IMG/VR virus record: IMGVR_UViG_3300025168_000813
Location: 1-21,269 of that record
DNA: 21,269 nucleotides
Source: a virus
Reading direction: 5' to 3' (one strand)
The notes under the pieces are model-generated. The model was not told the DNA's origin and made no database searches. It worked only from the letters and a program-made list of their open reading frames with translations. Shown piece after piece: positions 2,326 through 14,988 of this stretch. A program made the position numbers and the translations under genes. Each line of letters opens with the position of its first letter. Positions within the stretch are counted from its first letter, which is position 1.

Positions 2326-3354
2326 TTATTGGTATTGAGGTAAAGTTCTTTGGTCTACAGGCACGCCACCCATTCCAAAAACTCTAAATTCTGGCGGAAT
2401 ATAAAGATCGTTATTAGGATCGTATTGAGGCGTATATCTAGGGTCATTTGGACTTATGTTGTATTCAGGAGCTCCTGAGAGATCATTTACAGCTTCCTTA
2501 GTGAGATCTTTTGATGCTTGTTCAGCTTTCTCTCTACCAGTAGGAGCTCTTTTAGTAGTAGTAGTCTCAGAACTTCCATCTTCTTTTGTGATTGTTGTTG
2601 TTGTTTCTGCTGGAGGAGGATTCAATAATAATTGATTTTTATAATCTTTTACAGACAGCCCTGCTGAGTCAGCTAATTTCTTTGTATCACTGTATAATCC
2701 TGCACCTTGAATTCCTGCAGAAACAAGTCCTCCTACAGCACCTATCATCGCTGCGTTATTATCTGCTATTTGGTCTCCAGCAGCAGTAGCAGCTCTTTGA
2801 GCTCCAGCTAATCTTTGGTATTGCAGCTGTAAATCTTTTTTTTCATTCATTATACCTATTCTCTGTTCTTGAGACATAAACTTATCATCTATCTTTAATT
2901 GGATGTCATCTAACCTAGCGGCTACTTTTGCCGATGCATCTGTCACTCCTTGTTGTACTCTTCCAGCACCTCCAATCGAAGCTCTTTGCCCTCCCTCTTG
3001 AAGAGACTCTGTTGTGGACTGAGCTGACCTTTGAACTTGTTCCATTTGAAGCTTAGTACCTGTGAGGGGAGCTTGTAAAGCCTCGTATCTATTAATGAAC
3101 TTTCTTTTTTCAATATCTTGACCTAGTCTCACAGCTTCAGCAGTAGCATCAGCAAGAGCACCCTGCGCTTTTTGTTTTTGAAAATAATTAGCTCCTAACT
3201 TAAATAAACTAATTGCCGCTGGAATAACAAATGGAGCTATTGCTAGATAAGAATCACCAAACCCAAAAGAGAAAATGCAATCAAATAAGTATATATTTAA
3301 TATAGCTAAAAAACAGTGATATAAAAAAACGAAATAAGTTTTAATTCTGGACAT
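2326..3354 (-). CDS. Probable internal virion protein with N-terminal hydrophobic segments
   Basis: I chose the ATG at 3354-3352, giving 342 residues. An in-frame GTG at 3363 would add MNF but lies almost on the expected transcription start from the TAnnTTTG box at 3371-3378. Residues about 5-30 form a hydrophobic segment. A second one follows (YLAIAPFVIPAAISLF), then a Gln/Ala/Arg-rich helical middle, a small Gly/Ala patch (AMIGAVGGLVSAGIQGAG), a Thr-rich stretch, and a Pro/Tyr-rich tail. Hydrophobic N-terminus plus coiled coil is the pattern of small ejected proteins such as T7 gp14, known to enter the host envelope. That is an analogy, not homology I can show. The region encoding the first 35 residues is very AT-rich, so a later start is possible. 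Confidence 0.75.
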   Translation of the reverse strand: MSRIKTYFVFLYHCFLAILNIYLFDCIFSFGFGDSYLAIAPFVIPAAISLFKLGANYFQKQKAQGALADATAEAVRLGQDIEKRKFINRYEALQAPLTGTKLQMEQVQRSAQSTTESLQEGGQRASIGGAGRVQQGVTDASAKVAARLDDIQLKIDDKFMSQEQRIGIMNEKKDLQLQYQRLAGAQRAATAAGDQIADNNAAMIGAVGGLVSAGIQGAGLYSDTKKLADSAGLSVKDYKNQLLLNPPPAETTTTITKEDGSSETTTTKRAPTGREKAEQASKDLTKEAVNDLSGAPEYNISPNDPRYTPQYDPNNDLYIPPEFRVFGMGGVPVDQRTLPQYQ

Positions 3355-3370
3355 AAAATTCACTTTACCA

Positions 3371-3383: not shown

Positions 3384-4169
3384 TTAAGGATAACTCTTAA
3401 ATATTTCACTACTGACCGCAAATAAATTAGTTTTAGTTTGATCAGAGTTTGTTAAAGTAACCTCGTTATAATGACCTCTAAGGCCGTAAGATTCAGCTAC
3501 ACTATTCTTTACTGCAAAAACAAAATTAGTAGCTACAGGAGTGTTAGTAGGATTAGTAACTTCAATAAATCCAGAGCCAAACACATCAGAGTTAGATAAT
3601 CCAGTTATTGAACCCATCTCTAACAAGTTTCCAGATCCGTCTTTAAAGTAAGCAATATCCCCTATATCCACTATAGGATTTAGTTGTTGTGTAGGTTGAA
3701 AAGTAAACGTAATAGTTAAAACGTTGCCAATTGATGCTACAGTTGAGCTAGATCCTAAACCTTGAGTTGATATTTGAGAGAAATCTACATTTAATCCTGA
3801 TTCCACCGTTCTTCTAACGTTAGCAAAAAACGATCCCTCTTTAGGAACAAAGTACTGAGATTCTATTTTTGCTGAATGTAGGTCACTTACCATGTCAGCT
3901 TTCCAACTTTTAGTACCCTCTAATTCAATGGTTTTAAACATCTTAGTTTCAATAGGTCCGTCATTAAATACAAATTTAACTATAGAAGAAGCAATAGAGT
4001 CAGTTGCGTAATATTGATTTCTAGTAGTGTTACTATGGTGTTTCCAGGGTTTTCCTTGATAAAACGTATAAAAATTACTATTCATACCCACCATCCATTC
4101 AGGAATAAAAGAGTGAAAAGAAGTCCATCCTTTTACTGAGGGTCCATACGTTAATGTTACTTCTGACAT
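3384..4169 (-). CDS. Tail-associated protein with a KGWTSF-type module
   Basis: A 261-residue protein with an ATG start, beginning 9 bases after the stop of the giant tail gene. The N-terminal 100 residues (PSVKGWTSFHSFIPEWM, then NFYTFYQGKPWKHHSN, then FNDGPIETKMFKTIELEG) resemble a segment that I remember near the C-terminal end of tail-hub ('muzzle'-type) proteins of crAss-like and aquatic phages. Here it forms a gene of its own. The C-terminal half is Ser/Thr/Gly-rich and looks all-beta. No signal peptide or enzyme motif is visible. The likely role is as a tail structural component working with its upstream neighbour; this is inferred from resemblance and position. Confidence 0.8.
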   Translation of the reverse strand: MSEVTLTYGPSVKGWTSFHSFIPEWMVGMNSNFYTFYQGKPWKHHSNTTRNQYYATDSIASSIVKFVFNDGPIETKMFKTIELEGTKSWKADMVSDLHSAKIESQYFVPKEGSFFANVRRTVESGLNVDFSQISTQGLGSSSTVASIGNVLTITFTFQPTQQLNPIVDIGDIAYFKDGSGNLLEMGSITGLSNSDVFGSGFIEVTNPTNTPVATNFVFAVKNSVAESYGLRGHYNEVTLTNSDQTKTNLFAVSSEIFKSYP

Positions 4170-4178
4170 ATTATTTAT

Positions 4179-7100
4179 TTAAGGACATGTATATATTTCT
4201 ACTATTACACCTCTATCGTCTATTAATAAAGCTGTTCCATTGCCAGTTCCTACTATATCCCAAGGTGCTTTATACCAAACGTATCCTCCTCTAAACACGT
4301 TAGTATTACTTGTACCCCCTTGACCCAAAATAGGTACTGTAACAATATCATTTACTTGTGGATAAATGGTAGAACCACTATGATAAAACAAAGTTGAATT
4401 TAATTGTCCTGCCGCAATATTACAGGTTAAAGCAGATGTTGTTCCAAATTGAGAACCATCCATTTCAAATGTTCTTTGACCTTCTTCAATTACACTAATT
4501 GTTATAGTCGAATTGGCACTAGTTCCAAAACAATTTTCAGCATTAAACACCAGTGTAAAAGTCCCTGTTTCCGTAGGTGTTCCACTAATAAGCCCTTCTT
4601 CTTGATTAAAGAATAAACCAGAGGGTAAATATTGAGTTGAACTAGTTCCTGAATTAATAAATGTAGTAGTACCAGATGTAGTTGTATAAGTAGTTCCAGT
4701 CACTTCAATAACTATAGTGTCACTTGGTTGAACAGAAGCAGACCTAGATATATTTTGACAATCTGACCAACTTATAGTTGCACCATCTGCACCAGCCGTT
4801 ACTTGAAGCTCATTGCAAGTTCCTACAACATTATAAAATATAGGGTCGTTTGTTGTTTGAATATTTATAGAAGTAACCGTTCCTTGATTAATGTTTATTG
4901 TTGAAGGTAAAGTTATTACAGGAACTGCTGTTTCAGCACAAGTTGCACATAAATCTGTTGAATCTACCGTTCCATCCCCCAAAACACTTAGATAATAATT
5001 TAATGGAGCAGCTGGTATTGAAGGGGAAGTGTTACTTCCATATCTATGGTATGCATCATCTCCTATTCTAACTGTTCCGTTAGGATTTTCATATAAAATA
5101 TCTCCTGCTTCAGGTAATGGATTCGAACCGTTATGATACTTAGTAGTACTTGGCAACGCCCCTGATCTACAAACGTAGTTAGCGTCAGTAGTTAATAGTG
5201 ATGAAGCAGAGTTTTCATAAGTAAATTCAGTAAGAGTAGGATTAGTAATATCCATTTTAGCTATTTTATTAATACCTTCTCCAGTTATATTTTCACCTTC
5301 TCCATAATGTATTATCTCAGCATCGTAAATAGCGGTTTCTGTTGTTTTTACAAATTCTAACGTTCCAGCAGTAGTTGTAGCTGTAGCACCTGAAGAAACA
5401 ACTATAGTTCCGTTTAACCTAATATTAAATATGTTTCCAGTAGCTCCTGTGCCAGAAACCGGAGTATAAGCCAAGGATATCCTACCTTCTTTATCTCCAA
5501 AATCTAACCTAGTTGTAGAATTTCCTGCAGCAGTATTAGTTTGGATTGGAATTGCAAATTCAGATGTTGCTCCAGCCGTTATTTTTCCCCTGTAATCTAT
5601 TAAAGTATAAAAGTGGTCAAAACCTGATCTTGAAAAATTAGATATAGTACCAGTCCAATTGTTTCCTGTTAATACAGGGGTTAGCTCAACAGTACTAGGG
5701 TTAGCTATTATTTCATCAACTTGACTTTGTAAGTATTCAGTATTGGTAAGCAAATAGTACATTTTAGTACCTAATGATGGATCAAAAGCATCTCTGTCAA
5801 CTGCTCCTAATCTAGAAGCTGTTAAAGTCACATTGTCTCCTGTGGATGGATTGCGTCCAAAACCTTCTATTCCAGTTGTACTTCCACTAATAAAGGCTTC
5901 GGAATCATCTAGCATCTGTTGATCAATTGAAGCAAACGCACCAGATGTATTTGATGTAAAGTCATAAGTCAAGCTTCCTGTTTGTCTATTTGCATTTGAA
6001 GAAATAGCTACTCTACCCGATTTATTTGTATTTCCTACCCCTATTACCCCTGTAGTCAACTTACCTTGTCCAGATTGAGTAAAGTCTATATTAGTTGTTG
6101 ATGATCCACATCCAGCAATTTGTAACTGAAAAAATCTATTTGATGTACTTGGATTAGCTTGAAAAACCAAAGTAACTATTTCACTTCTAGAATTACCGTA
6201 AGACGGGCTTGAACCATTAAAAGTTATCCAATTCACTCCGCTCCCAGTGTCTATTGCTGTTATGGTCCAAGCTTTACTAGATGTTATTTCTAATGTTTCT
6301 GTAGACCCGTTTTTACCTATTTGAGGAACAAAATTAGCAGAAAAAGAAAAGTTGCATGGTGGCGCTGGAGTAGTGTTAGAAGATAAGACATACTGTTCTT
6401 TATGCGGGTCCATTGCCCCTAGCTTTTGTGTGTTTAAGTTGCTTCTAAATAAATCCTTAAAATAGTTATTCATTCCTAAATTAGATATCTCGAAAATGCC
6501 ATTTAAACCTAACTGTAATACAGCTCCTCTTTTAGAGTCTGTAAAATACATGTTGTTACCCCAACTAGCAAAACTTTCTGGATTTTCACTAATTCCATAT
6601 TCACCAGTGTAAGTTATTTGAGTACCTAGTACTTGTGGTATAGAAGCCACGTTTCCTCCTCCTACGGAATCAGATAATAAGTTTTTACCAAACAAAACTC
6701 TAGATACTTTGTCTTCTTGAAATAAAACTAAATCAGTGTCACGAGAGTATAATTTTTGAATAGGTCCGTACTCTTTATTAACATCTTTAAAGTTAGCAAG
6801 TGATAAATTAAATTCATTAAGATTATTAACGTTAGTATATTCTGTAAACACACCGCTATATGTTAAACTGGCTGTTAAATGTTCTTCCCTGTAATTTTCT
6901 ATATTTGTGCTTACTCTTGGGCTATATCTTAAAAATGCAGAATTAAACTGCCCTTTTATTCTAGTTGCTTCCACTCCATTTCCAAAAGAGAAACAGTTAA
7001 AAGCAGAATTTTGTGCTTGAGTAGTTGTGAAGTCCCCAACATTATATGAGTTTTGATTTAAACTTACTATTGCAGGGTTTCCATTATATTGACTCTGTTG

Positions 7101-10100
7101 GTTTGCTATATGAGCATTGTTTCCTTTGTCAATATTAAATGTATAAGGCATCTCGTAAAAAATACCAGTATCTACTTCAGTAGGTTTGGTTTCAAAAATA
7201 GGTGACCCCTTTTCATTTTGTACGATATTAAATTCACAACTTAGCTCCATCACTTTATAGCTGTCATCTCCCACTGCACTACTACTTCCAGAAGCTGTTT
7301 GGCCTTTTACTTGACTAGACCTAATAAAAGCTGCTATTGGATAATCAAAAGCAATTAGCTTCGCCCAACTTTGCCAATTACCACTACTGTTTAGAGACGG
7401 AGCTCCATTTGGACCGCTTGATAAAGCTTGTAAAAAAGTATCGTTCAAGTCATCGCTTTGACCAGTTTGATCGGTTCGTTGTAATCCACTTGTGTTTAAA
7501 GCCCCTGAATCTTGTGAAACTCTTCTAAAAAATATTCTTTTTCCTCTGTGATTATCATTGTTATCTTGACAATTTACGTGCCTAAAACTTTGCCATATAT
7601 CTTCTTGATAAAACCACTCTTCTATATTTAGGTAATTATTATTTGAAAAAAATCTATTCATGCTAGTCTTTGTAGACGTTAGAGTTCCACCAGCATATAA
7701 ATTTTCTGTAATATTTATTTCAATTAAAGCTCCTGTTGCTATTCTTTTGTCTAAAGCTGGGTAGTCTCTTGTACCATTAGGTCTAAGAGGTATTTGTGAT
7801 GGGGTATTTGACAGAACTTGTTGGCTGTATCCTTCGTGACCTCCACCACCAGTAATAACGGATATAGCATCCCCTGCTGCAGGATCTCCTTGAGAATATA
7901 TAGACCCAAACTGACCTGTGTTCGAATTATTATAAGACCCTGTGGGGCTAGTCTTAACTCCAAAATTTGTTAATCCAAACCTAGAATGAACATTTATTAT
8001 GAAGTAATCATCTAAAGCATATCCAGCTCCTTTACTAAATCTTAAATATATTAATAAATCATACGCAGGATTCGGAGCAGGAACACCCACTGCACTTGGG
8101 GGATTGTTTATAAGGTAACTAGTTCCTGAAAGATAATATAAAGAAAGGTCAATATTTTCATACCACAACTCATAAATGCCATCATTAAAGTTTTCTACTT
8201 TAAAAGTTTCATTAGCAGTAATGGTTATTTTTATTCTAGCATCTCTCTTGGCAGGTGTATCAAAAGCAGTTATTTTTCCAGAGGGGGTGGGCGCTAAAAG
8301 CTCTATTCTGTTATGTGTTAAAGAGGCTCCGTAAAAAACAGGAATGTCTATTTGTCCAATTGCATTTCTTTCTCCATTAAATGTATTACCTGCTCTAGTA
8401 AATGTTCCCTGATCTATTATATATTGTCTACGTAAACTATGTTTTCCATTAAGTTTTGCTCCAGCTAATCCCGTACCTACATATTTAGCATCAAATACAT
8501 CTGAAATTATATCTCCACCTGTGTCCGATATCATAAAATACAATCCGCCAAACTCATCATTTCCTAAAAAATCATCTGGCTTTACTTCTACTTCTATTAC
8601 TTTGTATTGCTGATTTGAATTAGTAGCTATTCCATTTACCTGTTTCATGTATATAAAAGAGCCTACATCAACTTTATTTACCTCAGATCTATCAATCATA
8701 AAATAATAATCCGATCCATCTCTGTAAAATATTGTAGGAAAAATAGTAGAATAATTATCAGTAACAGATTGTTTTAAATATATCCTGTATTTACTTGCAA
8801 ACTCCGGTGGTCTATTGTATATATAAACTCTTAAATCGTTAATTGTAGCAGAGTTATTAGGGGATATATAGGCTGTATTAGACTGACCTGGTTGTGGTCC
8901 ATTAGGATTAGAAATATTAGGAGTTAAAACCGTAGACATTCTCCCATAATCATCTAAGTAAACTATACCAACTTCATAATTTCGGTCACTTTTAAAACTA
9001 GGTATCCCCGGTCCGAAACGGCTCCCTTGTCTAGATCCTACAATTAAGTTAAGGTCAATTGCTATATTATCACCTAAAGAGTCATGTATATTGTATCCTT
9101 GAGTGTAATTACCATAAACAAGTCTGCTTCCAATTATTTCTTGTGACTGTGCTTTTCTTGGAACATTGTCAAACAGTCTAGTTACTTCGTCAGCACTAAG
9201 TATAGAATATATTTTGTTATTATTAAATGTTACATCTGAATTGCTATTACTAAGCCAATTATTTAATTTTTTATCAAAGGTCTCAATCACATAAACTGAC
9301 CCAGTAAACTCATCAAAAAACAAAAGTTGTACATCTGTTACTTGAACATCTCCTGTGTCTATATTTATCTTTACTTGATTAAATCCATTTATCATAGATG
9401 TAAATACATCTTCCGAATAGTTAACTGAAAATTCAGTTGGTGCAAATGCTGTTGCTGAAAAAGGTGACAAAGAACTATATTCATCATTTTCGTATCTCCA
9501 TCTATAAGCAAATCTTATATACTTTTCACTAATATTGTTTAATTCATTTGTTAATTTTGCTGGAACCAATGACCCTGTTGTGTTTTCAAGAGTTAATGAA
9601 GGGGGATTTAAAGGTGGTTTAAGAATAACAGATATGTCATCTTCGGTAAATGCGTTAGCAGCATAATACTTAAGTATATTTACTCTTCTAGGAGGGTTTA
9701 AATTGTCTGTCCAAAAAAGTAGGTCTCCAATAATATTTACTCCAGTTATTACGTATTCAGAATCAAACTTTAGAACTCTTCCAGCAGTATCTTTAAGGAT
9801 TATTGCAGTAGAATTAGCTGACTCGTTGTATCTTAATATATAATCAAAGTTAGTGTCTTTAACAAACCAATAGAATTCTTCAGCAGCTGGATTTTCAATA
9901 GCTCCTATAGTTTTAGCAGCAGAACTTAAATAACTTAAATCACCACCAACCTGGGTATTACCAAGCATATTTTGAACAGACCCCACACTTGAGTTCTCAG
10001 ATGTTGATACACCTATGTTTTGTCCGTCTCTATATACTCCAGGGGGTATAAGGCGCTCATCGAGGTCCTTATTCATTATCCCCTTGGTGAATGTTCTTGT

Positions 10101-10109
10101 TAATTTCAT
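4179..10109 (-). CDS. Giant tail hub (stabilization/muzzle-type) protein with BACON-like and Ig-like domains
   Basis: This 1976-residue protein is the largest in the window. Near its start, MNKDLDERLIPPGVYRDG (residues 12-29) is the signature I associate with tail stabilization or 'muzzle' proteins of crAss-like phages, distant relatives of P22 gp10. Residues 30 to about 1240 are beta-rich and include DLVLFQEDKVSRVLFG near 1130. A BACON-like domain follows at about 1255-1347 (WTITAIDTGSGVNWITF, ending DFTQSGQ). A Cys-flanked domain spans about 1647-1724. Next comes a Ser/Thr-rich Ig-like part with a putative-Ig (He_PIG) motif at 1828-1873 (LPSGLFFNQEEGLISGTP). A second Cys-flanked domain at 1896-1976 resembles the first. 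The ATG overlaps the upstream stop as ATGA, so translation is probably coupled. The C-terminal modules suggest surface or glycan contact, which is inference. Confidence 0.88.
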   Translation of the reverse strand: MKLTRTFTKGIMNKDLDERLIPPGVYRDGQNIGVSTSENSSVGSVQNMLGNTQVGGDLSYLSSAAKTIGAIENPAAEEFYWFVKDTNFDYILRYNESANSTAIILKDTAGRVLKFDSEYVITGVNIIGDLLFWTDNLNPPRRVNILKYYAANAFTEDDISVILKPPLNPPSLTLENTTGSLVPAKLTNELNNISEKYIRFAYRWRYENDEYSSLSPFSATAFAPTEFSVNYSEDVFTSMINGFNQVKINIDTGDVQVTDVQLLFFDEFTGSVYVIETFDKKLNNWLSNSNSDVTFNNNKIYSILSADEVTRLFDNVPRKAQSQEIIGSRLVYGNYTQGYNIHDSLGDNIAIDLNLIVGSRQGSRFGPGIPSFKSDRNYEVGIVYLDDYGRMSTVLTPNISNPNGPQPGQSNTAYISPNNSATINDLRVYIYNRPPEFASKYRIYLKQSVTDNYSTIFPTIFYRDGSDYYFMIDRSEVNKVDVGSFIYMKQVNGIATNSNQQYKVIEVEVKPDDFLGNDEFGGLYFMISDTGGDIISDVFDAKYVGTGLAGAKLNGKHSLRRQYIIDQGTFTRAGNTFNGERNAIGQIDIPVFYGASLTHNRIELLAPTPSGKITAFDTPAKRDARIKITITANETFKVENFNDGIYELWYENIDLSLYYLSGTSYLINNPPSAVGVPAPNPAYDLLIYLRFSKGAGYALDDYFIINVHSRFGLTNFGVKTSPTGSYNNSNTGQFGSIYSQGDPAAGDAISVITGGGGHEGYSQQVLSNTPSQIPLRPNGTRDYPALDKRIATGALIEINITENLYAGGTLTSTKTSMNRFFSNNNYLNIEEWFYQEDIWQSFRHVNCQDNNDNHRGKRIFFRRVSQDSGALNTSGLQRTDQTGQSDDLNDTFLQALSSGPNGAPSLNSSGNWQSWAKLIAFDYPIAAFIRSSQVKGQTASGSSSAVGDDSYKVMELSCEFNIVQNEKGSPIFETKPTEVDTGIFYEMPYTFNIDKGNNAHIANQQSQYNGNPAIVSLNQNSYNVGDFTTTQAQNSAFNCFSFGNGVEATRIKGQFNSAFLRYSPRVSTNIENYREEHLTASLTYSGVFTEYTNVNNLNEFNLSLANFKDVNKEYGPIQKLYSRDTDLVLFQEDKVSRVLFGKNLLSDSVGGGNVASIPQVLGTQITYTGEYGISENPESFASWGNNMYFTDSKRGAVLQLGLNGIFEISNLGMNNYFKDLFRSNLNTQKLGAMDPHKEQYVLSSNTTPAPPCNFSFSANFVPQIGKNGSTETLEITSSKAWTITAIDTGSGVNWITFNGSSPSYGNSRSEIVTLVFQANPSTSNRFFQLQIAGCGSSTTNIDFTQSGQGKLTTGVIGVGNTNKSGRVAISSNANRQTGSLTYDFTSNTSGAFASIDQQMLDDSEAFISGSTTGIEGFGRNPSTGDNVTLTASRLGAVDRDAFDPSLGTKMYYLLTNTEYLQSQVDEIIANPSTVELTPVLTGNNWTGTISNFSRSGFDHFYTLIDYRGKITAGATSEFAIPIQTNTAAGNSTTRLDFGDKEGRISLAYTPVSGTGATGNIFNIRLNGTIVVSSGATATTTAGTLEFVKTTETAIYDAEIIHYGEGENITGEGINKIAKMDITNPTLTEFTYENSASSLLTTDANYVCRSGALPSTTKYHNGSNPLPEAGDILYENPNGTVRIGDDAYHRYGSNTSPSIPAAPLNYYLSVLGDGTVDSTDLCATCAETAVPVITLPSTININQGTVTSINIQTTNDPIFYNVVGTCNELQVTAGADGATISWSDCQNISRSASVQPSDTIVIEVTGTTYTTTSGTTTFINSGTSSTQYLPSGLFFNQEEGLISGTPTETGTFTLVFNAENCFGTSANSTITISVIEEGQRTFEMDGSQFGTTSALTCNIAAGQLNSTLFYHSGSTIYPQVNDIVTVPILGQGGTSNTNVFRGGYVWYKAPWDIVGTGNGTALLIDDRGVIVEIYTCP
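6069..6350 (-). other. BACON-like domain within the giant tail protein
   Basis: This segment codes for residues about 1254-1347. The BACON pattern is visible in order: a Trp after a Ser/Lys stretch (SSKAWTIT), a second Trp (VNWITF), a Ser/Gly turn (SPSYGNSRSE), a strand ending in an Asn-containing segment (LVFQANPSTSNRFFQL) and the terminal DFTQSG. BACON domains are known mainly from Bacteroidota carbohydrate-active proteins, and one was reported in a tail protein of the original crAssphage. Confidence 0.75.
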
Positions 10110-11029
10110 TTAATCCATTTAGCTCTTCCTCTTAAAGGCATTAAAAGTCTTCCAGGTTGCAAGTTGCTTAATCTAATTTTGGCGTTTCTAAGTTTAGCAG
10201 TTTTTTCTTTTCTAGCTCTAGTTATAATGTACTCTTGAACGTTTATTTTGTTTTCTAAAATCGCCCATCTAATATAAGTATATAAGTAGTCTTCTGCTAG
10301 TTTATTTATAACTATTTGATTATCGTCTCCATTTTCCATACCGTCTGATATGTATTCTAAGACCACTAACTTATTACCCATTTCTGAACTAAAGTTAATT
10401 ACACCACCAGCTTTATCTATTCTGAAATTAGGATTTTGATTAGCTAGTGACGTATTCATTCCGTAATGACCTCCTACTGAAAATCCAAAATACCATTCCC
10501 CATCACAACAATAACCTTCTTTATTATGATATGGGTGTCCTGTATTTAAATATAGTGTAGGTCTAGTGCCTTTTATTCTTTGTAAATCTATAGTGGAGTT
10601 TTCAGGTCTTAGTGCATTTCCATTTATGTCAAATAGTATTTCGGCATCTTGGTCCTGTAGATAAGCTGAAGAAAAATTAGTTTGAAAGTTCTCTATTAAG
10701 GGTCGTAAAACTCCGTTTTCATAAAGAGATATTCTCACATAATTTACATAGTCAGAAGGTAATATATATTTTAAGTCATCACTTACTTGTAACTCTAATA
10801 TTTTTATATTCTTTAACGCATCGTAGTTAATCTCTTGTATACCTCTTTTGGCATGAAATAATATATTATACCTAGTAGTGTTGCTTACTAATTTATCATC
10901 TCCTGAATACATTAGCTCAAAGTTATTTACTATGTCGGCTAGTGATACATACTGGTAATCTCCCCAGTTTATATTCTTAGGAACAACATCATCATTAGTG
11001 TAATATTTTCTATCAGTTATATAGGCCAT
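10106..11029 (-). CDS. Tail tubular / neck adaptor-like protein
   Basis: A 307-residue protein with an ATG start. Its start overlaps the upstream stop by one base (TAATG) and its stop overlaps the giant tail gene by four (ATGA), so the three genes are likely translated together. The sequence has the layout of head-tail ring or tail-tube adaptors: a helical N-terminal part (RYNILFHAKRGIQEINYDAL), a strand with LPSDYVNYVRISLYENG, a beta-rich middle, a strand LVVLEYISDG, and a helical C-terminus ending in a basic Arg/Lys/Pro tail (LLMPLRGRAKWIK). It is the best candidate for the tail tubular protein of the crAss-like gene set. The assignment rests on motif layout and on its place directly before the tail hub gene. 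Confidence 0.72.
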   Translation of the reverse strand: MAYITDRKYYTNDDVVPKNINWGDYQYVSLADIVNNFELMYSGDDKLVSNTTRYNILFHAKRGIQEINYDALKNIKILELQVSDDLKYILPSDYVNYVRISLYENGVLRPLIENFQTNFSSAYLQDQDAEILFDINGNALRPENSTIDLQRIKGTRPTLYLNTGHPYHNKEGYCCDGEWYFGFSVGGHYGMNTSLANQNPNFRIDKAGGVINFSSEMGNKLVVLEYISDGMENGDDNQIVINKLAEDYLYTYIRWAILENKINVQEYIITRARKEKTAKLRNAKIRLSNLQPGRLLMPLRGRAKWIK

Positions 11030-11778
11030 TAAGATTCAGTTTTAATTTGTAGGATTTCTTCGCTTTTTTCAAAGTTTACTACTTCTTGTTCTCTGATACT
11101 TATTCCAGCATATTCACATATCTTAATAGTAATATCTATAGCATCTGAAAGCGGTAACTCAAAGTCTTGGTAAGAAGCACTAGTAGGGTCAAATACAGGA
11201 TCACCATCAGCACCAATAGAATTATATGTCCAAGCTGGAGTTTGAGGATATCTAACATAAGTCAATAAAACATCTGAAGTAATAGACTCTGGATATACTT
11301 GAACCGCATTTGCCGCTGGGCTAATAGGACTAGTAATCGGAGCTGGACCAACTACATAAGCTGGATAAGAAGTATTAGGAGCTGTTAAATTAGAAGAAAG
11401 TAACTTACCTATTTTATATTGAGATACTCTTTCTATTTCTGTATAAGTTATTGGAGCTGTTGTTGGAACTACTTCTAGTTTTAGTAAAGTATACCAGTCG
11501 TTTGGTAATGTAAATGAACCAGTTGCTACATGAGTTAAAGCACTAGATACTGAAAAAGTATCCAAAACTTCTTTCATTTCTTTTACAATATCAGCGTAAG
11601 ACTCCCCTGACATTCTTTGATTTTGTTTCTTTGTCCAATTAGCTAAGCTAAAAAAGTATCCTTCAAAGACCTCTAGTTGTGCTTGGTTTGCAAATAAATT
11701 AAATTCTTCTGGTGTTAAGTACCCGTTGTTGTTCTTGTTTAGTATGGATAGTACGGTATTTCTTACCTCGTTGATCAT
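11029..11778 (-). CDS. Neck/ring adaptor-like structural protein
   Basis: A 249-residue protein with an ATG start, 16 bases downstream of a TATCTTTG promoter box. The N-terminus is helical (NGYLTPEEFNLFANQAQLEV). A strand GSFTLPNDWYTLLKLE and, later, LLTYVRYPQTP follow the same 'LP-D-y then v-Y' layout as the next gene, suggesting that both build rings or the tube between portal and tail hub. The C-terminus returns to helix (ISIREQEVVNFEKSEEIL). It is the first gene of the neck-tail transcription unit. The ring or adaptor role is inferred from layout and gene order; the exact counterpart in other phages is not clear to me. Confidence 0.7.
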   Translation of the reverse strand: MINEVRNTVLSILNKNNNGYLTPEEFNLFANQAQLEVFEGYFFSLANWTKKQNQRMSGESYADIVKEMKEVLDTFSVSSALTHVATGSFTLPNDWYTLLKLEVVPTTAPITYTEIERVSQYKIGKLLSSNLTAPNTSYPAYVVGPAPITSPISPAANAVQVYPESITSDVLLTYVRYPQTPAWTYNSIGADGDPVFDPTSASYQDFELPLSDAIDITIKICEYAGISIREQEVVNFEKSEEILQIKTES

Positions 11779-12743: not shown

Positions 12744-13487
12744 TTATTTTACTTTTTTCTCAAGTAGCTCTAAAACTTCTAGCCCATCATCTGTCTTGAA
12801 ATATGATATTAATGAACGTTTGTGGTCTTCGCCAAATGGAACAGTAATAATTCTTTTTTTGTTTTCTTTTAGATTGTAATAGATTTCTCTTTTTTGCTTT
12901 CTATAAGTAATCAAGTTTTGCTCAAAAGATTTAATTACCAACTCTTCTAACTCTAAGTCACTATCGTCTAGCATTTCTAAAAATCCTTCTGGATCTTGTT
13001 TAGCATAAACTAATATGTCTCTTTTTAGTTCGTTAGTTTTTATACCATCTACTCTATTTCCCATTAAAACTCTTCCTATCATTTCCATTTTTTCAATTGG
13101 TAAATCAGAAGCTAATTTTAACGCCTCTATTTCAAGAGTTAAGAAATCTAATTCTTGTTGAGCATCACGCTCTAAATCTACTTCTTCGTAAAGAGTTCCG
13201 TTTAAAGGATGGAGAGATAAAAATTGTTGCAGTAATGTATCTGTTCTTTTAGTGTTTAAAAAGCCATCTTCAAATATAATAGGCTCTATTAATACATTTT
13301 TATCTTGTTCGTCTTCGAAAATAGACTTTTGGTTTTTGGCATATCTCATTGCTCTGTTGATTCCCTTTTCTTCATCAAAGTGTAATAAAGGGTTACTAGT
13401 TGAATGAGTTGAATTGATCATTGTGGAGATAGGCGTTTTATCTGACTTTAACCTATACATCCTGTCTTTTAATACTTGTTTTTTCAT
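12744..13487 (-). CDS. Conserved-looking phage protein of unknown function, 247 residues
   Basis: The frame stays open back to 13628, inside the capsid gene, but I start it at the ATG at 13487-13485 (MKKQVLKDRMYRL). That ATG follows an A-rich leader shared with the scaffold gene (AAATCAAATCAAATG), and the upstream part reads as an off-frame shadow of the capsid gene. The protein is acidic and mostly helical. LLHFDEEKGINRAMRYAKNQ, FLSLHPLNGTLYEEVDLERD and TNELKRDILVYA look like family motifs that I recall from other aquatic-phage head modules, with no known function. It lies between the capsid gene and a strong terminator, so it probably belongs to the capsid transcript. A structural or assembly role is only suggested by position. 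Confidence 0.8.
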   Translation of the reverse strand: MKKQVLKDRMYRLKSDKTPISTMINSTHSTSNPLLHFDEEKGINRAMRYAKNQKSIFEDEQDKNVLIEPIIFEDGFLNTKRTDTLLQQFLSLHPLNGTLYEEVDLERDAQQELDFLTLEIEALKLASDLPIEKMEMIGRVLMGNRVDGIKTNELKRDILVYAKQDPEGFLEMLDDSDLELEELVIKSFEQNLITYRKQKREIYYNLKENKKRIITVPFGEDHKRSLISYFKTDDGLEVLELLEKKVK

Positions 13488-13515
13488 TTGATTTGATTTA
13501 ATTATGTAAATAATA

Positions 13516-13531
13516 GGGGGCCGAAGCCCCC
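13516..13531 (-). terminator. Very stable GC hairpin with TTCG loop after the capsid gene
   Basis: On the minus strand GGGGGC-TTCG-GCCCCC forms six GC pairs closed by a TTCG tetraloop, 17 bases after the capsid stop. The following TATTATTT is T-rich but not a clean T-run. It could be a leaky terminator or a stabilising 3' end for capsid mRNA. Confidence 0.65.
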
Positions 13532-13548
13532 ATATATAATTGTCTTTT

Positions 13549-14988
13549 TTATCCTTTGAACAATACAAAGTTGTTTGCACCCATAGTACATAGAGCTCTT
13601 TCAGATAAGAAGTTGACTTCCATCGCATCTAAATCTGAAGTAGCAGCACCACCAGCACTACCAGTCATCCACGTTTTGTAACGTCTGTCTTCTGTTTCAG
13701 AAGCTCTGTATCTTACGTGTAAGAATGGTCTCTTAGCGTTTTTTCCTAAGATTTGATCGTATACTGAAGTAGAACCAGCTGGTACTAAAGCACCGCTTAC
13801 TTTTCCACCATCAATACCACCTCTTAAAGTAGCATCGTTTAAGTATTTCCAATCTGACTTATAGAAATCATAACCTCTTCTGAATCCTTTGAATCCAAGG
13901 TTAAGTGCCATTTCTTCGTCATTGTCAAACAATCCGTAAGAAGTACCACCTGCACCGTAAGAGTTTTGAGCAGCTAACATGTCATCAATTGCGAAAGAGA
14001 AATTTCTATCAACAAAGATTACATTTTCCTGAATAGAACCTTGCTTGTCTAACCTTTTGATTATAGTATCAAATGCAGCTAAAGTAGTTGGATAACCACC
14101 TGCCCATACATTTCCTCTAGACTCAATAGCTTCGAACATTCCTTCAGTACCTACGTTATTAGCTAAACCTGTTCCAGCTGGATAAGCTGAACCTGATAAG
14201 TTAGCTAAAGCACCTGAAGCATTTTCAGCAATAACACCTTCAATCATAGACATCTCTAAGTAGTCTTCAAATCTTAGTCTTGTTTCGTGCTCAGACTTCA
14301 AATACCATAAGTATCCAGTAGCTCCATTTTCAGTAGTTACTTCAACCCATCCAATTTGAGCCATATCAGAACCAGAAACAACATACTTGTCTTTGATAAT
14401 AATTGGTTTGTTAGATAAGAAGATATCTTCAGCTTCTAAAGATCCAACCATTCCAGTTGTTCCTTGTTGAAATTCAGAACCGTATACAAATACAGTTAAT
14501 GGAACGTTTGCTGGTACTACTTGACTAGCCTCGTAAAAAGCTACGAAAAACTCATCAGTAGTAGCTGCACCAACACTAGTAACAATACCCTTGTTAGAAT
14601 TTGACCCACCATTTTCTGATATTAAAACAGTTTGTCCTACTCTAAAGTTACAAGCTTCATTTGTTCCTGCTCCACCAGCTCCTGTTAAAAACTTAACGGG
14701 TACTGCAACTGCAGCCGGAGCTGTAGCTGTTTGTGCTGCTGCATACTTTGTATGTAGTCTACCTTGCTCTGCCCATTTGATAAGGTCTGAGTTAGTAGGC
14801 ATTTCAGCTCCTACCATACGTAAGAAAGCTGCGATTGTTCTGTTACCGTATCTTTCGAATTCTTTTTCGTAAGTATCAGGTAAGTACTGACTCAAAAAAT
14901 TGAAATCAGTTATATAATTACTTGGCAAAGTTGCCTTTACCGAACTGGGAGTTAATGCAACTCCACCAGCGTTTAATGATCCTGCCAT
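13549..14988 (-). CDS. Major capsid protein (HK97-type, crAss-like)
   Basis: A 479-residue protein with an ATG start, between the scaffold gene and head-completion genes. It forms the icosahedral shell. ERYGNRTIAAFLRMVGAE at residues 45-62 and the overall length match what I recall of capsid proteins of crAss-like and related aquatic phages. Ala/Gly-rich loops follow at residues 85-110. A beta-rich part at about 110-170 may be an inserted surface domain. The C-terminal half has HVRYRASETEDRRYKTW and ends NFVLFKG. The ATG follows an A-rich leader (CTAAAAACAAAAACA) with no Shine-Dalgarno sequence, as expected for high expression in Bacteroidota. A strong hairpin follows the stop. Confidence 0.9.
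   Translation of the reverse strand: MAGSLNAGGVALTPSSVKATLPSNYITDFNFLSQYLPDTYEKEFERYGNRTIAAFLRMVGAEMPTNSDLIKWAEQGRLHTKYAAAQTATAPAAVAVPVKFLTGAGGAGTNEACNFRVGQTVLISENGGSNSNKGIVTSVGAATTDEFFVAFYEASQVVPANVPLTVFVYGSEFQQGTTGMVGSLEAEDIFLSNKPIIIKDKYVVSGSDMAQIGWVEVTTENGATGYLWYLKSEHETRLRFEDYLEMSMIEGVIAENASGALANLSGSAYPAGTGLANNVGTEGMFEAIESRGNVWAGGYPTTLAAFDTIIKRLDKQGSIQENVIFVDRNFSFAIDDMLAAQNSYGAGGTSYGLFDNDEEMALNLGFKGFRRGYDFYKSDWKYLNDATLRGGIDGGKVSGALVPAGSTSVYDQILGKNAKRPFLHVRYRASETEDRRYKTWMTGSAGGAATSDLDAMEVNFLSERALCTMGANNFVLFKG

Follow-up and report, generated by a model that had tools for sequence, protein, structure and literature searches.

A divergent BACON domain at the start of an appendage inserted in the split muzzle of a putatively aquatic crAss-related phage

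The 1976-aa protein encoded on the minus strand at positions 4179-10109 of the window, which is the whole stretch of DNA analysed here (a viral contig, 21,269 bases long with 34% G+C), carries a divergent BACON domain at residues 1252-1347. BACON is a small sandwich module known above all from bacteria of the gut. Taking all the evidence together, the reading that we prefer, at a probability of roughly 0.68, is that this domain is a spacer that starts an appendage inserted in the split muzzle of an aquatic crAss-related phage. More interesting than the BACON domain itself is the break in the muzzle, which lies at a fixed site and bears BACON-led appendages.

A crAss-type muzzle encoded by two genes

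The genes on the minus strand of the window run in the order terminase, portal, capsid-type proteins, two neck/tail proteins, the 1976-aa protein, a 261-aa protein and others. Those that concern the muzzle are:

10106..11778, minus strand: two neck/tail structural genes (307 and 249 aa; phrog_13977 and phrog_14543), upstream of the muzzle
4179-10109, minus strand: ORF of muzzle body and appendage, 1976 aa
6375..10109, minus strand: muzzle body, residues 1-1245, ending at the conserved ...DPHKEQYVLSS strand (PF25731, E 1.5e-15; PHROG 14478, E 4e-204)
3384..4169, minus strand: muzzle C-terminal half, a separate 261-aa gene (PF25729, E 2e-10; phrog_18548, E 2e-37)

The sequence-only reading had called the 1976-aa protein a tail hub protein, but its matches in Pfam, the PHROGs and alignments are to the muzzle and not to a tail hub; in PhiCrAss001 the tail hubs are gp38 and gp39, not the muzzle (PMC10172136). 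Over its N-terminal 1247 aa the protein matches Pfam crAss_MUZ (PF25731), the next gene matches crAss_MUZ_C (PF25729), the body aligns with the muzzles of phi38:1, Gundel_1, elemoF and phi13:2, and the product of 3384-4169 can be aligned with the C-terminal region of intact muzzles. Judged by these matches the protein is a crAss-type muzzle (T7-nozzle-like) broken in two; PF25729, looked for within the same chain, is carried in the window by the next gene, which begins 9 nt past the stop codon of the body and appendage ORF. The order of the two neck/tail genes upstream of the muzzle is the same in phi38:1 and phi13:2.

The muzzle section of PMC10172136 gives a layout of ring-joining domain, propeller, two Ig domains and crass fold, attributes differences in length to insertions in the crass and IG2 regions, and makes no mention of a split at this site. 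Aligned as a profile, the C halves correspond to residues 1200-1291 of PhiCrAss001 gp44, with the break site at gp44 ~1198; the body profile found no match among PDB sequences and the placement on gp44 is by sequence alone. From the pattern of strands, the break is predicted to fall in the hairpin between two strands of the muzzle beta-propeller. PhiCrAss001 gp44 and the muzzles of the cultured relatives phi38:1, Gundel_1 and elemoF have in common with the window a homologous body and PF25729 region, at the same place downstream of tail structural genes; they are, however, one unbroken chain of 1324-1493 aa without BACON, whereas the muzzle of the window is split, holds a 730-aa insert and would have its C half supplied in trans. 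Cellulophaga phage phi13:2 (Pachyviridae; gp120/gp121) shares both the split site and the separate C-half gene, although in its appendage, unlike that of the window, a Cys-flanked non-BACON domain comes first and a Big_9/cadherin-like domain is also present.

Membership of the BACON family

Translation of positions 6069-6350 gives residues 1254-1347 of the minus-strand ORF, and the pattern from which a BACON-like domain had been read is found where it had been placed, with WTIT at 1281, NWITF at 1293 and DFTQSG at 1342 of the 1976-aa protein. The right edge of that range stands, whilst the left edge has to be moved, the domain beginning slightly earlier at Cys1252. It lies directly after the muzzle body, which ends at ~1245, and does therefore follow the conserved part as had been claimed.

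6069..6356, minus strand: BACON domain, residues 1252-1347, with signature residues W1281, W1294, N1319, R1325 and Q1345 and a pair of cysteines, C1252 and C1334

The profile search that had been proposed as a check gave a divided answer. Plain Pfam hmmscan of both the window protein and the bare segment returned no BACON match, the curated cut-off not being reached, whilst a bacterial BACON HMM and hhalign were both positive. The HMM was made from 310 domains from genome contigs, found with a generic BACON-like consensus as the search seed, and all eight of the domains sampled from behind it exceed the curated cut-off of Pfam BACON (PF13004) and/or BACON_2 (PF19190). The window segment reaches 28.0 bits against this HMM (E 1e-10 when a single sequence is searched), compared with at most 16.5 bits for 20,000 shuffles, 1.0 for the reversed segment and at most 6.3 for non-overlapping parts of the muzzle. 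In hhalign 15 homologues align to the bacterial BACON profile over all 66 columns with a probability of 97.4% and a score of 58.5, where 200 column shuffles reach no more than 22.7; the reversed alignment reaches 27.1, and the family call therefore rests on the combined evidence. The probability is 98.3% with 30 muzzle BACONs, one of the 30 rows being a wrongly picked ORF.

Relatives of the window bring the domain within reach of Pfam. Homologues of the segment match PF13004 below its cut-off in two loci, L020 (20.1 bits, E 6e-4) and L013 (E 0.006), and muzzle relatives at the same site lie above the cut-off of 25 for PF13004 (L139, 38.6 bits; L132, 32.9; L221, 27.6) or that of 25 for PF19190 (L126, 38.4 bits; L144, 27.6), such that the PF13004 scores at one site form a graded series from the window with no match, through L020, to L139. 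The four conserved residues W, N, R and Q that define BACON (PMC6949934) are kept across the 30 muzzle versions, with W1281, R1325 and Q1345 in 30/30 and N1319 in 28/30. Since the Pfam cut-off is a detection threshold and not a structural trait, the window domain is still filed as a divergent BACON. Less was returned by two other searches: tblastn of the segment in phage records gave weak matches only (best E 0.01), and a genome-contig scan using the L020 version gave no match.

The predicted fold is the Ig-like beta sandwich that the sequence-only reading had led one to expect. Of the two conditions named beforehand as refuting that reading, the want of a Pfam match applies to the window sequence, whereas a fold of another kind does not. 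An AlphaFold (AF2) model made with 15 window and locus sequences is an eight-strand sandwich (pLDDT 89.4, pTM 0.78), and a Foldseek search of the PDB with it gives the first four places to 4zmh and 3zmr (E 3e-5 to 9e-5, TM 0.59-0.64, prob 1.00); 4ZMH and 3ZMR are the structures named for BACON_2 and BACON (PMC11216935). Among viral models several matches are labelled 'BACON domain-containing protein', one of them from Polaribacter phage Leef_1. Model and search together confirm, at the level of prediction, a sandwich like that of 3ZMR and 4ZMH. The BACON families of 3ZMR (BoGH5A) and 4ZMH resemble the window domain in this fold, in the W/N/R/Q signature, in size and in standing at the start of a multi-domain appendage. 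The window domain differs from the PF13004 and PF19190 families in a sequence that lies below Pfam detection and in a conserved Cys pair near both ends, and it sits inside a phage muzzle whereas known BACON families lie behind a lipoprotein signal. Both C1252 and C1334 are present in 27 of the 30 muzzle versions and both are absent in three, which are the stand-alone ones and belong to one clade, so that few independent events are represented. A disulfide between C1252 and C1334 likely closes the domain.

It would seem very improbable that the domain is instead a generic Ig-like sandwich that has come to resemble BACON by convergence, without being a member of the family. The want of a Pfam match for the window sequence could be read in this way, as could the weak matches of antibody domains when the segment profile was searched against PDB sequences (3zmr was also weak, and the search carried no weight in the family call) and the many Ig-like folds that Foldseek returns, yet the best structural matches are the two BACON structures and not antibodies, the register in hhalign is full-length with the four signature residues kept, and the alternative domain that occupies this site in other loci, described below, fails the comparison with BACON (hhalign 3%). 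Convergence also sits badly with the graded PF13004 series, and is largely refuted by the relatives above the cut-off, which share the site and part of the tree.

The appendage

The BACON domain is the first part of a long appendage whose features are:

4182..6374, minus strand: whole appendage, fused to the muzzle body, residues 1246-1976 (~730 aa), BACON first
4890..5189, minus strand: appendage module, residues 1641-1740 (C..YHNG..P..GD..Y..H.YG..CxxC), conserved in the alignment
4491..4742, minus strand: He_PIG Ig-like domain, residues 1790-1873 (Pfam PF05345, 33.4 bits, cut-off 24)
4182..4439, minus strand: C-terminal appendage module, residues 1891-1976 (YHSG..P.VND..GGY.WY..IDDRG..CP), from the alignment

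L013, L020 and L031 encode the appendage separately, in a gene that opens with BACON, and the stand-alone appendage of L020 has its own ATG after AGGAGG. The module at residues 1641-1740 corresponds to phrog_21885, itself without known function, at E 2e-5 in the window and E 1e-13 to 3e-14 in L013 and L020; judged by eye, the module at 1891-1976 looks like it. The appendage ORF ends with Cys-Pro in 24 non-redundant loci. A model of the appendage is of moderate quality (pLDDT 75, pTM 0.46), and a fold search of the PDB with that model gave no usable match.

Generality and descent of the split

After two further scans of viral contigs the comparison covered 200 phage loci, which were picked by similarity to the window such that the counts are not population frequencies. 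In 135 loci, the window included, the HMM matches to the body end and the C half fall in different ORFs, 330-5610 nt apart, and in six loci (phi38:1, Gundel, Panino, elemoF, L150 and L151) the halves lie in one ORF, 10-55 nt apart. Removal of near-duplicates leaves 109 non-redundant loci, 104 of them split and five intact. BACON stands directly after the body end in 30 non-redundant loci, with L223 left out of this number as its domain is 2.4 kb downstream, and the rest mostly have a different domain of ~110 aa at the same site. This alternative domain, which starts with CG and ends with CP, occurs in ~70 non-redundant loci (L118, L116, L149-L199 and others); two members tested had no match in Pfam, and hhalign to BACON gave 2-3%.

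In a tree of the body end and C half the domain types follow descent, requiring six Fitch changes against 31.7 in shuffles. As the domain types track the tree, BACON is inherited and not a recent acquisition. Recent swapping of BACON between lineages was considered as the main pattern and rejected, the labels following the tree. L150, which is intact, and L196, which is split, are sisters with a support of 0.999, a pairing that points to more than one gain or loss of the break. Deep branch supports are weak, at 0.2-0.7 at several nodes, so that the tree gives no firm count of independent splits.

That the split is an assembly error, or that a single chain is made by readthrough of the stop, has next to nothing left to commend it. 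The two ORFs of the window do share a frame with one TAA between them, but the split recurs in the 104 non-redundant loci from many assemblies as well as in the isolate phi13:2 (gp120/gp121), the gaps are of up to 5.6 kb and often hold further ORFs, and the halves are in frame in 34/104 loci, which is the level expected by chance. With the frame relation of the halves random, readthrough is not the mechanism.

Spacer or binder

In the mechanism that we propose, BACON would be the first domain of a multi-domain appendage of ~730 residues that is inserted in the tail-tip muzzle between two predicted strands of its beta-propeller, whilst the rest of the muzzle, namely the propeller end and the PF25729 domain, would be made from the next gene. 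The muzzle would then be assembled in trans from two chains, or from three where the appendage is its own gene. BACON itself may be a rigid adapter or spacer, probably closed by a disulfide. It would guide the chain away from the propeller hairpin and keep the YHNG/YHSG modules and He_PIG at a distance from the tail, and it would be these later modules of the appendage, not BACON, that contact the host surface.

Conservation of the domain differs with the time scale. In the close relatives L006, L007 and L004 BACON is 100, 96 and 92% identical, compared with 94, 71 and 40% for residues 551-1000, a pattern more to be expected of a structural adapter than of a surface engaged in an arms race. 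In distant relatives BACON identity falls to 27-36%, against 67-72% for the propeller end, and over long times the domain is, on these identities, not strongly constrained.

The sequence-only reading had proposed a glycan- or mucin-binding module at the tail tip, and that candidate role is unproven and not favoured. A BACON domain that is itself the receptor- or glycan-binding module, making the first contact with host surface polysaccharide, is unlikely, albeit clearly less so than the alternatives weighed above. It gains some credit from phage K1F, for which display of BACON-containing gut-phage proteins, one of them with a single BACON, gave higher uptake by epithelial cells (PMC13370021), and from the tail-associated BACON arrays of p-crAssphage (PMC6949934). 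However, carbohydrate binding has been shown for no BACON domain (PMC13003899, PMC12853789, PMC6949934), the BACON of BoGH5A is described as a linker (PMC6949934), and a spacer role has been proposed for BACON (PMC13003899, PMC12853789, PMC11216935). Direct binding also fits poorly with a BACON that is among the best-conserved segments of the muzzle in close relatives, and whose presence tracks the muzzle phylogeny as described above. A spacer is thus favoured over direct binding with reasonable, though not great, assurance.

More broadly, the propeller of the aquatic crAss-related muzzle may be broken recurrently at a site that functions as a docking slot, in which varied adapters (BACON or the Cys-flanked 'CG...CP' domain) and their appendages are installed, with the nozzle rebuilt from two or three chains; we regard this as an evenly balanced proposition. 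What is found is a nozzle protein, conserved and seemingly essential, that is interrupted at a single fixed position and carries long appendages, and phage BACON is now placed at the tail-tip gate in non-gut phages, beyond the tail arrays of the gut. The break site offers a concrete place to seek the receptor-binding parts of aquatic Bacteroidota phages, and could be tested in cultured relatives such as phi13:2. A BACON domain alone should be taken as evidence neither of sugar binding nor of a Bacteroidota host.

Host and relationship to crAss-like phages

Phage records that match TerL and the muzzle number 87, and all are phages of Flavobacterium, Cellulophaga, Tenacibaculum or Maribacter except for one environmental (spring-water) genome. 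The host is likely a member of the Bacteroidota and probably flavobacterial, in what would be an aquatic setting. The BACON domain had been taken to support a Bacteroidota host; the host itself is upheld by the matches to phages of Flavobacteriia, but the evidence then offered is not. A search of genome contigs found bacterial BACON also in Acidobacteria, Akkermansia, Treponema and others, and being present in many bacterial phyla BACON is no host marker.

The link with crAss-like phages survives as a distant kinship only. TerL BLAST at E 1e-5 found no gut Crassvirales record, returning phages of Flavobacteriia and one environmental phage, which speaks against a close link, and as far as these tests reach the phage appears to be a crAss relative outside the order Crassvirales. 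The parallel with BACON in crAss phages likewise holds in part, as the BACON array of p-crAssphage is in a different protein, gp64 (PMC6949934). The crAss-BACONs of gp64 and the window domain are alike in that both belong to tail-associated proteins of podoviruses of Bacteroidota, whereas the window has a single BACON and not an array, in a muzzle chain and in an aquatic lineage. Single BACONs have been described as lying away from tail genes and mostly on gut contigs (PMC6949934).

Further observations

The annotated muzzle of Maribacter phage Panino (L120, 5001-8914) comprises two called genes inside the body (946 + 320 aa), cut at a different place from the split of the window; this could be a frameshift or another break. 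Elsewhere in the window the minus-strand ORFs 12744-13628 and 13549-14988 share an 80-nt overlap, and the called start of the former, of 294 aa, is probably too early. Finally, positions 2326-3363 encode a 345-aa protein with a GTG start, a hydrophobic N-terminal segment and a weak match to the virion structural phrog_13764, which could be a protein stored in the tail and ejected.
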